Assembly: GCF_000974765.1 (NCBI RefSeq)
Contig: NZ_BBWU01000001.1
Coordinates: 62,001-126,000 of the forward strand
Length of the DNA: 64,000 nt
Direction of reading: 5' to 3'
From: Sphingomonas changbaiensis NBRC 104936
GTDB lineage: Bacteria > Pseudomonadota > Alphaproteobacteria > Sphingomonadales > Sphingomonadaceae
In this document: piece by piece, positions 40,530 through 48,114 of the stretch
Layout of the letters: every line of letters begins with the position of its first letter
How positions within the stretch are numbered: the first letter of the stretch is position 1
Notes under the pieces: generated by a model
Database searches by the model: none
What the model was told of the DNA's origin: nothing
The model's input: only the letters and a program-made list of their open reading frames with translations
Translations under genes and position numbers: made by a program

Positions 40530-40655
40530 ATCCCAGACAGCGCGGCACCCCTCCCCGCTGTCTGAACCAAGACAGGGTCACCCCTCCCTGTCTCCTAGGA
40601 CGACCCCAGTCCGGGCCTCGCTCCCCACCCCAGGAGCGGGGCCCTTCTGGTTTCA
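40530..40655 (+). ncRNA. Candidate small RNA: two C-rich-loop hairpins plus terminator
   Basis: Hairpin 1 (40534-40564) has a 9-bp stem CAGACAGCG/CGCTGTCTG with loop CGGCACCCCTCCC. Hairpin 2 (40571-40592) has a 7-bp stem GACAGGG/CCCTGTC with loop TCACCCCT. An intrinsic terminator follows (40613-40644). Both loops expose CACCCCTCC, complementary to Shine-Dalgarno sequences. This layout resembles alphaproteobacterial trans-acting sRNAs with anti-SD loops. A TATACT box at 40523-40528 could be the -10, but I find no matching -35 at proper spacing. No ORF here is protein-like. The exact 5' end is not determined. Confidence 0.6.
40613..40644 (+). terminator. Strong intrinsic terminator of the sRNA candidate
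   Basis: A 12-bp stem, GGGCCTCGCTCC with GGAGCGGGGCCC (one G-U), encloses the loop CCACCCCA and is followed by TTCTGGTTT. It ends 9 bases before the stop of the minus-strand TPR gene. Confidence 0.7.
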
Positions 40656-41594
40656 GGCGCCTGGAACCCCAAGCGTGCGCGCCGCCTGGACGAGGTCTGC
40701 GCGCGAGTCGGGATTGGCGGCGATCGCCTGTTGAAGCGCCTGGGCGGCTTCGCGGCCCTGGCCCAGCATCATGCGACTGCGGATCAGCATCATCCAGCGG
40801 TCCGGCTGCTTCGGATCGGCCTGGAGCTTGGCGGCAAGCCCGTCGACCATGCCGCGGACCATCGCCTCCTGCTGGCCGGACGGAAGCTGCGACGCCGCGG
40901 CCATCTGCTCGCGGCTTGGGCCGGGGATGCCGTTGAGCGCCGCGGCAGGGCCGGCGGGAGCCGCGGGCGCGAGCGGCTTCAGCGCGGCCAGCCTGTCCTT
41001 GACGTCGATCTTCTCCTTCGCGGCGACCTGCTCGATCGTCTTGCGAACATCGGCTTCCCAGGGTGCACCCGATGGCGAGTCTTTCAGCAAGGCGAACCAG
41101 GTGTCGATCGCTTCCTTGTGCCGGCCCGCCATGTCCTGCTCGACGCCGATGAAATAGCGGGAGCGCGGGTCCTTCGGGTCGATCGCCAGCGCCTTCTTGA
41201 ACGCGGCGGACGCATCGGCCGGAATCTTCTCACCCGATCCGGCGAGCACCAGCGCCTCGCCCAGCGAAGACCAATATTCGGCGTTCTTCGGCGCAAGTTG
41301 GGTCGCCTTCTGATAGGCCATCGCGGCTTCGGCGAATTTGCCCGTCTCGAAGAACGACCATCCGAGCATCCGCCACCCTTCGGCGTCGTTCGGATTGGCC
41401 TTCAATTTGGCTTCCAGAGACGAGATCATCGTGTCCACGTCCGCCTGGGGGCTGGCCGAAGCCTGGGCGACGGGCGCGGGGGGTGGAGCGGCTCGGTTCC
41501 GCGATGCGGCGACGCCCACCGCGACGATTGCGATCGCAGCCGCCCCGAACAGCGCGAGGCGGGAAGCAGGGATAGTCCTCTCAGTCATTGCCAT
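40653..41594 (-). CDS. CcmI/CycH-like TPR protein (cytochrome c biogenesis)
   Basis: 313 residues. One N-terminal helix (RLALFGAAAIAIVAVGVAAS) precedes at least three TPR units (DAEGWRMLGWSFFETGKFAE, AEYWSSLGEALVLAGSGEKI, PRSRYFIGVEQDMAGRHKEA) and a C-terminal block with WMMLIRSRMMLGQGREAAQA. This matches the periplasmic TPR part of CcmI, which presents apocytochrome c to the heme lyase. It lacks the usual two-helix CcmI N-terminus, and no ccm operon is adjacent. Divergent from a redox cluster encoding a decaheme cytochrome, with a CRP-like site between, so a dedicated maturation role is plausible. Confidence 0.72.
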   Translation of the reverse strand: MAMTERTIPASRLALFGAAAIAIVAVGVAASRNRAAPPPAPVAQASASPQADVDTMISSLEAKLKANPNDAEGWRMLGWSFFETGKFAEAAMAYQKATQLAPKNAEYWSSLGEALVLAGSGEKIPADASAAFKKALAIDPKDPRSRYFIGVEQDMAGRHKEAIDTWFALLKDSPSGAPWEADVRKTIEQVAAKEKIDVKDRLAALKPLAPAAPAGPAAALNGIPGPSREQMAAASQLPSGQQEAMVRGMVDGLAAKLQADPKQPDRWMMLIRSRMMLGQGREAAQALQQAIAANPDSRADLVQAARTLGVPGA

Positions 41595-41606
41595 TCCGTC
41601 GTTTTT

Positions 41607-41622
41607 TGTGGCCTCAGTCACT
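41607..41622. promoter_or_regulatory. CRP/FNR-family-like palindrome in the divergent promoter region
   Basis: TGTGG-CCTCAG-TCACT matches 8 of the 10 specific positions of the CRP consensus TGTGA-N6-TCACA. It lies 13 bases before the TPR gene start and 105 before the cNMP/FAD gene. A further TGTGA half-site is at 41704-41708. A cyclic-nucleotide-dependent regulator would fit the cluster content; the regulator itself is not in the window. Confidence 0.5.
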
Positions 41623-41727
41623 AGCGAACCGATCGGACTTTGGTAAGAAGGGGTGGGGCCGCACCATTGTCCGATACCGGCGAGAACCGGACGGGCAGGT
41701 CAGTGTGATTTTCTGGGGGGAAGAGGC

Positions 41728-44235
41728 GTGTCGGACGCTTTCCGCATCGCAATCGTGGGATCGGGACCTGCGGGCCTCAGTGCGGCCGGCCGGGCCGCAG
41801 AGCTGGGCCTGAGCCATGTGCTGCTCGAAAAGACGGACCATCTGTCCGACACCATCTACAAATACCAGAAGGGCAAGCACGTCATGGCGACGCCGGTGCA
41901 GCTTGCCCTGCGTTCGCCGCTCGATTTCGATGCTGGCAAGCGCGAGAAGGTGCTCGGCACCTGGGACGAGCAGACCGCCAAGCATGGCGTGAACGTCATG
42001 CATCACGCCGACGTGAAGGCGATCACCGGCGCCAAGGGCGACTTCACGCTGAAGCTGACCGACGGCCGCGAAGTGAAGGCGGAAACGGTGATCCTGGCGA
42101 TTGGTACCCAAGGCAATCCGAACCTGATGCGCTGCCCGATCGAGGACGGCGCGGTGGTCCAATACACGCTCGACGATCCAGCAGAATATAATGACGAGCA
42201 CATCACCGTCGTCGGCGGCGGCGATGCGGGCATCGAAAATGCGCTGGGTCTCGCCGCCGAGGTCGCCCAGGGAAACGTCGTCAGCCTGTGCAACCGGTCG
42301 GCGGAATTCTCGACCGCGAAAGGGCCGAACGTTGCCGCCCTGCTCGGCGCGCGCGACGCCGGGCGGATGCAGGTGCTGACCGAAAGCACGCCGGCAAAGG
42401 TCGAAAAGGGCTGGATCACGTTCGACACGCGCGACGGCGAACTGAAGATCCGCTGCGACCGCGTGATCGCCCGCATGGGCTCGGCGCCGCCCCGCGCGTT
42501 CGTCGAGGCGTGCTGCGCCGAGTTCGAGGAGAAAGAGGACCCGCGCAATCCGGGCAAGATGATGCGCGGCGTGAAGGCGGGCACCGGCGTGCAGTTCACC
42601 AGCAACGATCGGCTTGCCTATCCGGTGCTGTCGCCGACGTTTGAATCGACCGTGCCCGGCATCTTCGTGATCGGTGCGCTCGCGGGATACCCGCTGATCA
42701 AGCATTGCATGAATCAGGGCTATGACGTCGTCGAGTTCATCAACGGCAATACCGCGCTGAAGCCCGCCGACGAGCCGATCCTCGAAAAGAAATTCGCGGG
42801 CCTGCCGAAAGGCCGCGACGTCGCCGAATGGTTGGAGCTGCTGCGCACCAATATCGGCATTCTCCAGGGTCTTTCGCCGCTGCAGATGCGCGAGTTCATG
42901 CTCGATTCCGACGTGCGCATGTATCGGCCGGGCGAAGTGATCTTCGTTCGCGGCGCGCGCGAGGATTCGCTGTTCGCGATCGCCGAAGGGTCGGTGCTGG
43001 TCGAAATCAATCCGCAGGACCCGTCGATCACCGTGCCGATCGGCACCGGCGAAATATTCGGCGAGGTCGGACTGATCTCCGGTCGCACGCGCGGCGCCAC
43101 GATCCGCGCGGCCGAGAAGAGCATCATCGTCGAGATTTCGCGCCTCGCCGCGCTGCGCCTGCAGCGCCAGGTGCCGTCCGCACAGAAGGAAATCACCCGC
43201 ATCTCGATCGAGCGGCAGCTGCTGCAGCTGTTCAAGGCCGGGTTGACCAAGGAGGACGTCGCCGAAGTCGTCGCCGGCGCCGAGGTCAGGACCGTCAAGG
43301 CCGGCGAAGCGGTGATTACCGAGGGCGAGCAAGGCAGCGACGTGTTCGTGATCCGCTCAGGCTCGATGATCGTCGAGAAGACGGTCGGCGGCAAACCCGT
43401 GTTCCTGAGCTATGTCCCGGCCGGCTCGTTCGTCGGCGAGATGGCGCTGATCGACGGCGGCCTGCGCACGGCAACGGTCAAGGCCGCGATCAAGGCCGAC
43501 GTGATCCGCCTACCCGGCGAAGCCTTTGCCCGGCTGATGGCGAGCAAGCCCGCGCTGGAGCAGCGCGTCCGCCAGGACATGGAAGCGCGGCGCATCGTCA
43601 ATTCGTTCGTCGAGGAGCGCAAGCACAGCTTCTCGGGCGCGGTCGACCTGTATTCGCAGACGGCGAAGTTCCTGATCGACGAGGGCATCGGCGAAGCGAC
43701 CGACGTTCTCCTGATCGACGAAAATCTCTGTGTCGGTTGCGACAATTGCGAAAAGGCCTGCGCCGACAGCCATGACGGGCTTAGCCGGCTCGATCGCGAG
43801 GCGGGCAAGACCTACGCCCACCTGCACGTGCCGACCTCGTGCCGGCATTGCGAGCATCCGCACTGCATGGCCGATTGCCCGCCCAACGCGATCCATCGCG
43901 GGCCGGACGGCGAGGTGTTCATCGACGATACCTGCATCGGCTGCGGCAATTGCCAGCGCAATTGCCCCTATGGCGTGATCCGGATGGACAAGGTTCCGCC
44001 CAAGAAGCCGTCGTTGCTCAGCTGGTTGTTCCTCGGCCTCGGACCGGGACCAGGCGAGCCGAGCCACGAATGGTCGGTCGAGAATTCGAAGGGCGAGAAG
44101 CCGAAAAAAGCGATCAAGTGCGACATGTGCTCGGGGATCGAGGGCGGCCCGGCTTGCGTCCGCGCTTGCCCGACCGGCGCCGCGATCCGTGTTTCGCCGG
44201 ACGAATTCCTGACGGTGGCGCGACTGGAGGCGTGA
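41728..44235 (+). CDS. Fusion: FAD/NAD(P) reductase, two cNMP-binding domains, four [4Fe-4S] clusters
   Basis: 835 residues, GTG start with SD GGGGGAAGAG. Residues 1-370 form a YpdA/thioredoxin-reductase-like flavoprotein with FAD site GSGPAG (11-16) and a second Rossmann GGGDAG (163-168), but no CxxC disulfide. Two cyclic-nucleotide-binding domains follow: about 384-500 (GEVGLISGRTRGATIRA) and 501-620 (GEMALIDGGLRTATVKA), both keeping the Glu and Arg ligands of cNMP. The C-terminus (668-815) has CVGCDNCEKAC, CRHCEHPHCMADC, CIGCGNCQRNC and CDMC...CVRAC, a DmsB/HybA-type four-cluster ferredoxin. It is probably an NAD(P)H-dependent electron donor gated by cAMP/cGMP (inference). No membrane segment or signal peptide is apparent, so it is probably cytoplasmic. 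Two bases separate its stop from the cytochrome b-like gene. Confidence 0.87.
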   Translation: MSDAFRIAIVGSGPAGLSAAGRAAELGLSHVLLEKTDHLSDTIYKYQKGKHVMATPVQLALRSPLDFDAGKREKVLGTWDEQTAKHGVNVMHHADVKAITGAKGDFTLKLTDGREVKAETVILAIGTQGNPNLMRCPIEDGAVVQYTLDDPAEYNDEHITVVGGGDAGIENALGLAAEVAQGNVVSLCNRSAEFSTAKGPNVAALLGARDAGRMQVLTESTPAKVEKGWITFDTRDGELKIRCDRVIARMGSAPPRAFVEACCAEFEEKEDPRNPGKMMRGVKAGTGVQFTSNDRLAYPVLSPTFESTVPGIFVIGALAGYPLIKHCMNQGYDVVEFINGNTALKPADEPILEKKFAGLPKGRDVAEWLELLRTNIGILQGLSPLQMREFMLDSDVRMYRPGEVIFVRGAREDSLFAIAEGSVLVEINPQDPSITVPIGTGEIFGEVGLISGRTRGATIRAAEKSIIVEISRLAALRLQRQVPSAQKEITRISIERQLLQLFKAGLTKEDVAEVVAGAEVRTVKAGEAVITEGEQGSDVFVIRSGSMIVEKTVGGKPVFLSYVPAGSFVGEMALIDGGLRTATVKAAIKADVIRLPGEAFARLMASKPALEQRVRQDMEARRIVNSFVEERKHSFSGAVDLYSQTAKFLIDEGIGEATDVLLIDENLCVGCDNCEKACADSHDGLSRLDREAGKTYAHLHVPTSCRHCEHPHCMADCPPNAIHRGPDGEVFIDDTCIGCGNCQRNCPYGVIRMDKVPPKKPSLLSWLFLGLGPGPGEPSHEWSVENSKGEKPKKAIKCDMCSGIEGGPACVRACPTGAAIRVSPDEFLTVARLEA

Positions 44236-45137: not shown

Positions 45138-47132
45138 ATGGGCTTCAAGATCATCACGATCGCGCGGACGTCCGAAGGCCGTGAAATTCCGCGCGAAAAG
45201 CTGGTGCCGGGCGACCAGATCAGCGTCGGGCGCCTGAGCGAGAACGACGTCCATCTCGCCGATCTTGCGGTCGAGCCGCGCCATGCCGTGATCAAGGAAA
45301 CCTCGCCGGGCCGGGTCACCGTCGACTCCATTTCCGGGCTCGGCTTCGGCTTCGACGGCCGCACCGTGATGCATGCGGAGATCGAGCCTGCCTCGACCGG
45401 CGCGGAGCTCCGCTTCGGCAATCACCGGCTGAAGCTCGGCAGCGACGACGGCACGATCGCGATCACCGTGGAGCGTGTCGAGGCGCTGTCCGATTCCGCT
45501 GAGGAAAAGGATCAGCAGACCGTCTTCACGATCCGCGGCCTGCTGCCGGGAAAGCGGGTCAGCGCCTACACGTTCGTCGCGCTGATCCTGGCCGCGTTCC
45601 TGGCCTGGCCGATCTACACCTATGCCAGTGCCCATGGCGAGAAGATCCGGCCGGCCGGTTTCCACGGCGACAAGACATGGGAAACCGGGGCGCTCAGCAA
45701 GGCGCATGCGGACCTTGAGAATGACTGCCAGGCCTGCCATGTCGACGCCTTCGTCGCCGTCCGCGACGATGCCTGCGAGGCCTGCCACACTGACGCGCAC
45801 GGCCGCGCCGCGACCGGCTTGCAGCGTGTGGCGATGACCGGGCCCGGCCGGCCGGGGCCTGCCGCCTACGACCATGCGCCGGAAAAGCTGCTGGCCGTGG
45901 CGCGGGGAGGGCCGGACAATCTGGGCGGTCGTATCAAGGCGTTTTTCAAGCACAGCTTCAACAAGCCCGAAGGGCGCTGCGTCGATTGCCATACAGAGCA
46001 TGAAGGCGCGGGCCCGATGCCGGCGACGCAGCAGGCCTTTTGCGCCGATTGCCACAACGGGCTGCAAGGCCGCCTCCAATCGGCAGGGTTCAAGAGCGCG
46101 ATCGGCAGCGCGACCGATTTCGGCCTGCAGCATCCGCCGTTCAAGCCGCTGATCCTGGCCGGCTATGACACCGCCCATCCGGTGCCGTTCGCCAAGCGCG
46201 ACGCGCGATCGGGCGGCAATCCGCTGCTCGGCTGGCAGATGCAACGTGCGGTGATGAGCGGCCCGATCAAGATGCCGGACGGGCTGAAATTCACCCACGC
46301 CCAGCATCTGTCGACATCGAACGGGATCGCGGAAATGTGGCGCAACGTGTCGCCCGGCCAGGGGCCCGGGATGGACTGCGAGGACTGCCACAAGACCGAT
46401 CCGAGCGGCACGCGCTACCAACCGGTCCGGATGGAGACTGCGTGCCAGAGCTGCCACAGTCTCGGCCTGCAGACGATCGGCGGCACGGTCCGCCAGTTGC
46501 CGCACGGCCAGCCGGCGCAGGTGATCGCCGATATCCGTGCTTTCTACGGATCGGGCGGCAGCTTCCGGCCGACCGGCCTGCCGATCGCGCGCTACACCCG
46601 TGCGCGGCCGGGCGAGGTCAATGCCGAGCGGCGTTCGGCGGACCTGGCGCGCGCGGCGGCGCTGCTGCCGGGCAAGGGCGATGCGCTGATCCGCGCAACC
46701 TTTGCTCCGGGCGGCGTCTGCGGCGAATGCCACACGGTCGGCATGGGCGGGCCGGACGGCGTGCGAATCGCGCCGGTCGCGCAGCCGACTCGCTATTTGC
46801 GGAATGGCTGGTTCGATCACCGCGCCCACATCAATCTTGATGTGCGCGGCGCGGACGGATCGCGCCGCTGGGGCTGCCGCGATTGCCATGCTGCCGAAAA
46901 GTCGAACACGGCCAGTGATTTGCTTCTGCCGACACTGACCACCTGCCAGGCCTGCCACACCGGCCAGAACGGCGCGCACACGGCGCAGCTTGTGCGTTCC
47001 GGCACAGCTTCGTCATGCGCGATGTGCCACGATTACCACGCCGACGAGGGAGCGCCCTGGGTGCTCAAGCGTAAGGGCAGGAAGACGGAGCCGGCGAACC
47101 AGGTGGCGATGCTGCAGGTCCGCTGGCGCTGA
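45138..47132 (+). CDS. FHA domain - TM - decaheme cytochrome c fusion
   Basis: 664 residues. An N-terminal FHA domain (about 20-100: ISVGRLSENDVHLADLAVEP then RHAVI) is followed by one transmembrane helix (about 140-158, AYTFVALILAAFLAWPIY). The rest (about 190-660) carries ten CxxCH heme motifs: CQACH, CEACH, CVDCH, CADCH, CEDCH, CQSCH, CGECH, CRDCH, CQACH and CAMCH, from residue 197 to 631. Topology would put FHA in the cytoplasm and hemes in the periplasm. FHA domains bind phosphothreonine peptides, so phosphorylation could control docking of the electron donor. The combination is unusual. It ends the three-gene redox unit, with the phosphodiesterase 91 bases on. Confidence 0.87.
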   Translation: MGFKIITIARTSEGREIPREKLVPGDQISVGRLSENDVHLADLAVEPRHAVIKETSPGRVTVDSISGLGFGFDGRTVMHAEIEPASTGAELRFGNHRLKLGSDDGTIAITVERVEALSDSAEEKDQQTVFTIRGLLPGKRVSAYTFVALILAAFLAWPIYTYASAHGEKIRPAGFHGDKTWETGALSKAHADLENDCQACHVDAFVAVRDDACEACHTDAHGRAATGLQRVAMTGPGRPGPAAYDHAPEKLLAVARGGPDNLGGRIKAFFKHSFNKPEGRCVDCHTEHEGAGPMPATQQAFCADCHNGLQGRLQSAGFKSAIGSATDFGLQHPPFKPLILAGYDTAHPVPFAKRDARSGGNPLLGWQMQRAVMSGPIKMPDGLKFTHAQHLSTSNGIAEMWRNVSPGQGPGMDCEDCHKTDPSGTRYQPVRMETACQSCHSLGLQTIGGTVRQLPHGQPAQVIADIRAFYGSGGSFRPTGLPIARYTRARPGEVNAERRSADLARAAALLPGKGDALIRATFAPGGVCGECHTVGMGGPDGVRIAPVAQPTRYLRNGWFDHRAHINLDVRGADGSRRWGCRDCHAAEKSNTASDLLLPTLTTCQACHTGQNGAHTAQLVRSGTASSCAMCHDYHADEGAPWVLKRKGRKTEPANQVAMLQVRWR

Positions 47133-47223: not shown

Positions 47224-48114
47224 ATGCTGATCGCGCAGATCACGGACATTCATTTGGGGTTCGATCCAGACAATCCGGCCGAGTTCAATCGGAAGCGGCT
47301 GGATCAGGTACTGCGACTATTGACCGGCATGAACCCCATGCCGGACCTGCTGCTTGCGACCGGCGACCTGGTCGATCGCGGCGATGGCGAAAGCTATCGC
47401 CGCTTGAGGAATGCGCTTAGCATCTGCCCCTTTCCGGTCTGGCCTTGCGTCGGCAATCACGATCAGCGCGAAACCTTTGCCGAGCATTTCCCCGAAATCC
47501 CGATGCCGGACGGGTTCGTGCAATATGAGGTCGACGCCGGCAAGCTCCGCTTCCTGGTGATCGACACGCTGGAGGAGGGGCGGCACGGCGGCGCCTTCTG
47601 CGAAGCGCGGGCGCGCTGGCTTCGCGAGCGGCTGGCGGAACAACCGGACCGGGACACGGTGATCGTGATGCATCACCCGCCCGTCGACGTCGGCATCGAA
47701 TGGATGACGACCGATCCCGAAGAGCCCTGGGTGACGCTGTTCGCCGACACGATCGCCGGGCACGCCCAGGTCAAGGGCATCATCTGCGGCCATCTGCATC
47801 GCCCGATCAGCGCCGCCTGGCGCGGCACCACGGTGTCGATCTGCCCGTCGACCGCGCCGCAGGTTGCGCTGGACCTTGCCCCGATCGATCCCGACCAGCC
47901 CGACAACCGCCCGATGATCATCGCCGATCCCCCGGCCTTCGCGCTTCACAAATGGAACGGGCGCGAGCTTGTCAGCCATTTCGACACCGCCGACGAACAC
48001 ACGATGCTCGCTAAGTTCGACGCCAAGATGCAGCCGCTGGTGCGCGCGCTGATGGCGGAGCGGCCGGGCCGGCAGGCGGCCGAAGAGGAAACGCCGATCC
48101 GCCAGGCCTGCTGA
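47224..48114 (+). CDS. Class III cyclic-nucleotide phosphodiesterase (CpdA/Icc-like)
   Basis: 296 residues. Calcineurin-like metallophosphoesterase motifs in order: QITDIHLGFD (DxH), LLATGDLVDRGDGE (GD), PCVGNHDQRETF (GNHD), VIVMHHPPVD and GIICGHLHRPISAAW (GHLH). The set and spacing match CpdA/Icc enzymes that hydrolyse cAMP. It lies 91 bases after the FHA-cytochrome gene in the same direction. Its neighbour's two cNMP-binding domains make cyclic nucleotide turnover the likely role here. A metallophosphoesterase of other specificity cannot be excluded from sequence. Confidence 0.85.
   Translation: MLIAQITDIHLGFDPDNPAEFNRKRLDQVLRLLTGMNPMPDLLLATGDLVDRGDGESYRRLRNALSICPFPVWPCVGNHDQRETFAEHFPEIPMPDGFVQYEVDAGKLRFLVIDTLEEGRHGGAFCEARARWLRERLAEQPDRDTVIVMHHPPVDVGIEWMTTDPEEPWVTLFADTIAGHAQVKGIICGHLHRPISAAWRGTTVSICPSTAPQVALDLAPIDPDQPDNRPMIIADPPAFALHKWNGRELVSHFDTADEHTMLAKFDAKMQPLVRALMAERPGRQAAEEETPIRQAC

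Follow-up and report, generated by a model that had tools for sequence, protein, structure and literature searches.

The window analyzed here is a stretch of 64,000 nucleotides from a contig of Sphingomonas changbaiensis NBRC 104936. One of its genes encodes a forkhead-associated (FHA) domain joined to a ten-heme cytochrome c, a protein that we refer to as FHA-c10. The gene, the parts of its product, and the neighboring genes are as follows.

45138-47132, plus strand: FHA-decaheme cytochrome c (FHA-c10), 664 amino acids, ATG start
45138-45476, plus strand: FHA domain, residues 1 to 113, predicted cytoplasmic
45552-45632, plus strand: single transmembrane (TM) helix, residues 139 to 165, with an invariant Arg140 at its cytoplasmic end
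45666-47039, plus strand: predicted periplasmic ten-heme region, residues 177 to 634, with ten CxxCH motifs and ten conserved non-CxxCH histidines
41653-44235, plus strand: predicted cytoplasmic oxidoreductase with Pyr_redox (FAD/NAD(P)), two cyclic-nucleotide-binding (CNB) domains, and a 16-Cys ferredoxin part including PF13247
44237-45118, plus strand: 293-amino-acid inner-membrane protein (IMP), five TM helices, SGxxG and two WX3HX13H motifs
47224-48114, plus strand: SpdA/CpdA-like metallophosphoesterase, downstream neighbor in 76 of 102 loci
40653-41621, minus strand: TPR protein of the CcmH/CycH type (cytochrome c maturation), divergent neighbor in 68 of 102 loci

A sequence-only reading had described one 664-residue protein with an FHA domain, one TM helix, and ten CxxCH motifs, and the open reading frame, the motif count, and the AlphaFold model all agree with this description. 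The CxxCH count is exactly ten; residue-shuffled versions of the protein contained 0.03 such motifs on average and 2 at most (2,000 trials). AlphaFold models residues 1 to 113 as a beta sandwich (pLDDT of about 95) and residues 139 to 165 as a helix; the positive-inside rule, with Arg140 invariant, places the N terminus inside the cell. The conserved histidines outside the CxxCH motifs are found at positions 190, 246, 288, 332, 387, 390, 456, 561, 564, and 634. These ten extra residues would allow ten bis-His hemes, an arrangement that fits an electron wire and not a catalytic site, suggesting that the periplasmic region is a wire. The heme region of the window's clade (664 amino acids) carries two inserts (window positions 45801-45869 and 46182-46235), both of which are missing from most relatives (about 600 amino acids). 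Scanning for promoters and terminators gave no signal exceeding that of shuffled sequences.

The Pfam FHA match, at residues 28 to 94, was barely above threshold (21.1 bits, cut-off 20.7). A chance match was nonetheless ruled out by profile and fold: a profile of 46 orthologous N termini matched the FHA structures of GarA and OdhI with E values of 7.5e-12 to 1e-10, all Foldseek matches with E below 0.001 were FHA entries, with OdhI and GarA at the top, and in VIA residues 1 to 106 matched FHA chains only (Z of about 10). The possibility that the N-terminal segment does not fold as FHA, which the sequence-only reading had raised against itself, thus did not materialize, and its central description, a genuine cytoplasmic FHA fold and a periplasmic ten-heme wire joined by one TM helix, was upheld.

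The phosphothreonine site of this domain is only partly kept. In canonical FHA domains, the Arg of the Gly-Arg pair contacts the phosphate, and the corresponding Gly31-Arg32, in the beta3-beta4 loop, is invariant in all 46 sequences. The phosphothreonine-contacting Ser of the S-x-x-H element is Glu46 in FHA-c10 and is Ser in only 4 of the 46, and the Asn of the N-G-T loop, which contacts the peptide, is deleted in the family consensus relative to GarA and OdhI. The invariant Arg32 aligns with Arg72 of OdhI, which, in the cryo-EM complex where the OdhI FHA domain binds the enzyme OdhA, forms a hydrogen bond to OdhA (PMC10415282). OdhI is thus a precedent for retention of this Arg without a phosphate. 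OdhI and GarA are the closest FHA structures, and the likeness may extend to the binding of a metabolic enzyme through the conserved Arg; they differ, however, in being soluble regulators that are turned off by their own phosphorylation, in keeping the Ser and Asn of the site, and in having no heme.

The 71 relatives returned by a scan of public genomes came exclusively from Sphingomonadales or from unplaced metagenome-assembled genomes of that neighborhood, and the full-length ones all had ten CxxCH motifs and the N-terminal domain. When whole genomes were searched by profile, this architecture also turned up in additional families of the class and elsewhere in the phylum. Nearly all full-length profile matches start within the FHA part, showing that the domain order is fixed. 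Of 55 aligned sequences, with identity down to 24%, 54 have ten CxxCH motifs; the number of additional histidines conserved in at least 54 of the 55 is likewise exactly ten. The sequence-only reading had allowed that the domain order might be common and already characterized; it is indeed common, with 102 loci examined here, but the literature lists it once, in a table (PMC10734462), and does not characterize it. This entry, cluster 403 in Table 1 of a study of Gallionellaceae, is a "Forkhead-associated protein" with 10 CXXCH motifs occurring in 27 of 87 iron-oxidizing genomes. Annotation and heme count are identical to those of FHA-c10, and the cluster very probably has the same architecture, although it was filed under "Other" and given no analysis, partners, or function (PMC10734462). 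Our literature searches on FHA domains with multiheme cytochromes, or LVIVD repeats with cytochromes, returned this table only. FHA-c10 resembles MtrA, MtoA, and DmsE in having ten c hemes and in being, as predicted here, a periplasmic wire of a porin system, but it differs from them in having a helix of its own as inner-membrane anchor. Because it scored far below the threshold of the MtrA/DmsE family (TIGR03508; 24.7 bits, cut-off 192.2), membership was rejected.

FHA-c10 is the third gene of an operon-like trio. In the window, both partners lie upstream, with a gap of 1 base between the oxidoreductase and IMP genes and of 19 bases between IMP and FHA-c10; the oxidoreductase likely starts at a GTG near 41728. 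Each partner was found in 99 of the 102 FHA-c10 loci. The exceptions are contigs ending at or near the core (L058, L069, and L070) and L138, in which the membrane protein was not detected. The ferredoxin part of the oxidoreductase has 16 near-invariant cysteines, equivalent to four [4Fe-4S] sites, and matches PF13247 with 43.6 bits (cut-off 26.2). Among the IMP orthologues, all 101 have the two WX3HX13H motifs, and 100 of the 101 have SGxxG. As the IMPs of PCC3 and PCC4 are described as having five TM helices, SGxxG, and two WX3HX13H motifs (He et al. 2017, PMC5566968), the window's protein is probably, judging from these motifs, a di-heme b protein of the PCC3/PCC4 type. The metallophosphoesterase resembles SpdA/CpdA, far under both NCBIfam cut-offs, and is possibly a cyclic-nucleotide phosphodiesterase; it adjoins FHA-c10 essentially in Sphingomonadales only, where the CcmH-type gene is the divergent neighbor.

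Many relatives carry a second operon beside the core, encoding a tetraheme cytochrome, an HbpS-like protein, a protein of 650 amino acids, and an LVIVD-repeat protein of about 1300 amino acids with ten CxxCH motifs. The 650-amino-acid protein belongs to no Pfam family, and Tyr or Phe is the last residue in every untruncated relative listed. It was modeled as a beta barrel matching AlgE (Foldseek E of 5e-15) and other porins, and we refer to it as the predicted porin. In the window's genome, the complete outer-membrane operon is encoded on a separate contig (G000:C39, about 62083-71553), with the porin gene at the following position.

G000:C39:66099-67877: predicted porin

Of the 102 loci, 31 have the porin gene in the vicinity of FHA-c10; in about two thirds of the loci, mostly from Sphingomonadales, no porin gene was found within the roughly 10 kb fetched. 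Among 289 genomes of the class, FHA-c10 occurs in 29 and the porin in 23, in all 23 alongside FHA-c10; the associated P value of about 8e-29 assumes independent genomes and is inflated by relatedness, 13 families being involved. Five of the six FHA-c10 genomes without the porin have a tetraheme or tetraheme/pentaheme type at the core. Three loci (L130, L146, and L150) carry 4-, 5-, and 10-heme cytochrome genes together with an open reading frame of 526 to 550 amino acids ending in Phe, a candidate porin.

Several further genes were noted around these operons. In two loci (L127 and L129), a tetraheme cytochrome adjoins the FHA-c10 core with no recognizable porin nearby, possibly a third variant. 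The HbpS-like protein, of the haem-degrading family, has 664 amino acids and lies between the tetraheme cytochrome and the porin (L159:14015-16009, minus strand); 28 of the 102 loci have its gene close to FHA-c10. A membrane protein with a CNB domain (L159:17580-18269, plus strand; G000:C39 about 71580-72269) is encoded divergently to the tetraheme gene of the operon; it was not counted among the parts of the system, as no relative was found near FHA-c10 in the other loci. About 40 kb from the outer-membrane operon lies a gene for a pentaheme c7-type cytochrome of 225 amino acids (L160:5558-6232, minus strand; G000:C39 about 110557-111231).

These components were compared with the published description of PCC4, which comprises a porin, 4-, 5-, and 10-heme cytochromes, the IMP, and a PF13247 Fe-S protein encoded upstream of the IMP, the last arrangement defining subgroup II (PMC5566968). 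The window's genome likewise has an IMP with five TM helices, SGxxG, and two WX3HX13H motifs, a PF13247 match in the oxidoreductase encoded upstream of it, a predicted porin (on C39), and 4-heme and two 10-heme proteins. A linked 5-heme partner was found only in L130, L146, and L150, which fit the 4-, 5-, and 10-heme recipe of PCC4. In contrast to PCC4, whose description in the main text has neither FHA nor cyclic-nucleotide domains (PMC5566968), these domains are present here, the genes are split over two contigs in the window's genome instead of forming one cluster, LVIVD repeats occur in the decaheme of the porin operon, and this operon also includes an HbpS-like gene. PCC3 shares the IMP signature, but membership was rejected, as the fetched loci contained no periplasmic cytochrome with 20 or more hemes. 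FHA-c10 is a member of an uncharacterized family matching PCC4, as published, in most tested features. Since the genes are unclustered here and PCC4 was compared by description only, we did not file it as PCC4. On balance, we favor the view that FHA-c10 functions as the wire at the inner-membrane end of a porin-cytochrome conduit, forming the inner-membrane half of a PCC4-like system.

From the parts, their gene order, conservation and co-occurrence, and the predicted folds, we infer a path for electrons together with its direction, the docking of its inlet, and its gating by cyclic nucleotides. At the inlet, electrons would be exchanged between NAD(P)H, the FAD, and the four [4Fe-4S] clusters of the cytoplasmic oxidoreductase, and between these clusters and the two b hemes predicted in the five-helix membrane protein. 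They would then pass between the b hemes and FHA-c10, whose ten c hemes would form a periplasmic wire held at the inner membrane, and, through the tetraheme cytochrome, between FHA-c10 and the porin with its LVIVD-repeat decaheme at the outer membrane (the C39 operon). The FHA domain, probably acting independently of phosphate as in OdhI and GarA, would hold the soluble oxidoreductase at the inlet of the wire; alternatively, its target may be the cytoplasmic loop of the membrane protein. Control would be exerted not by a kinase but by a cyclic nucleotide bound to the two CNB domains of the oxidoreductase. FHA-c10 would thus be the conserved inner-membrane hub of a widespread system that probably carries electrons between the cytoplasm and the exterior of the cell. 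Taken as a whole, with a PCC4-like wire, a docking FHA domain, and control through the CNB domains, this explanation seems to us somewhat more probable than otherwise.

Outward flow is slightly favored over inward flow, because electron transfer from NAD(P)H is downhill when bis-His hemes are the acceptors. The converse reading, which we regard as rather unlikely, is quinone-linked uptake, in which Fe(II), Mn(II), or a cathode outside the cell would donate electrons to the porin complex, from which they would reach FHA-c10 and the membrane protein, and finally quinone or NAD(P)+. It matches the proposal of He et al. for PCC3 and PCC4, in which quinone is the inner partner of the IMP (PMC5566968), and it gains from the IMP signature, from the resemblance of L130, L146, and L150 to PCC4, and from the ten-heme "Forkhead-associated protein" of the iron-oxidizing Gallionellaceae. 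However, the constant presence of an NAD(P)-type flavoprotein with a ferredoxin part suggests a nucleotide pool inside the cell, not only quinone, and sequence cannot reveal the direction of flow.

The sequence-only reading had suggested that a cytoplasmic kinase could control the wire, while observing that the window holds no such kinase gene. The absence was confirmed and extends to the whole genome, where, in an assembly rated 100% complete, no match to the Hanks kinase family (PF00069) was found; the FHA domain of FHA-c10 is also the only one encoded there. A Hanks kinase above the cut-off was found in 14 of the 33 genomes carrying FHA-c10 and was absent from 19. With the Ser and Asn of the phosphothreonine site lost as well, these findings speak against kinase control. 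The certain FHA fold, the invariant Gly-Arg pair, which could still serve a phosphoprotein, and Thr159 in the cytoplasmic loop of the membrane protein, a Thr in about 91% of 102 sequences, argue weakly for it. It is therefore unlikely that a cytoplasmic Ser/Thr kinase switches the wire by providing a phosphothreonine protein for the FHA domain to bind.

Cyclic nucleotides are a better candidate. The phosphate cassettes of both CNB domains are conserved, with Glu and Arg at positions 471 and 480 and at 596 and 605 kept in 92 of 92 orthologues, the window's genome encodes three class III cyclase domains, and in Sphingomonadales the trio is followed by the phosphodiesterase-like gene. Control is thus more likely to depend on a cyclic nucleotide bound by the neighboring oxidoreductase than on a kinase, and the reading that best fits these sequence features is that of the FHA domain as a phosphate-independent dock and of the cyclic nucleotide as the gate. 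A more specific version, which we put forward tentatively, is a second-messenger-gated conduit spanning the entire envelope, in which a cyclic nucleotide on the tandem CNB domains of the FHA-docked oxidoreductase would directly open or close the flow between NAD(P)H and the exterior. Such ligand gating at the protein level is not known to us from any extracellular electron transfer system described so far. That the decaheme is instead a sensor, passing on redox conditions in the periplasm by way of the FHA domain and the CNB oxidoreductase, for signaling and not for respiration, would fit the signaling-type domains (FHA and two CNB) on both cytoplasmic partners and the phosphodiesterase-like neighbor in Sphingomonadales, but is improbable, as four [4Fe-4S] sites, di-heme b motifs, and a linked porin and cytochromes exceed the needs of a sensor.

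The earlier record of the FHA-decaheme architecture is the one unexplained table entry from Gallionellaceae (PMC10734462), and our literature search found no experimental work on members of exactly such a cluster. For a class of predicted porin-cytochrome conduits, the present analysis identifies the half lying in the cytoplasm and inner membrane, which is conserved in Sphingomonadales and in many other Alphaproteobacteria. In place of the kinase idea, it offers a testable one, namely, that a cyclic nucleotide gates an NAD(P)H-linked wire through the envelope. Cultivable Sphingomonas strains would allow direct functional tests of this PCC4-like system.
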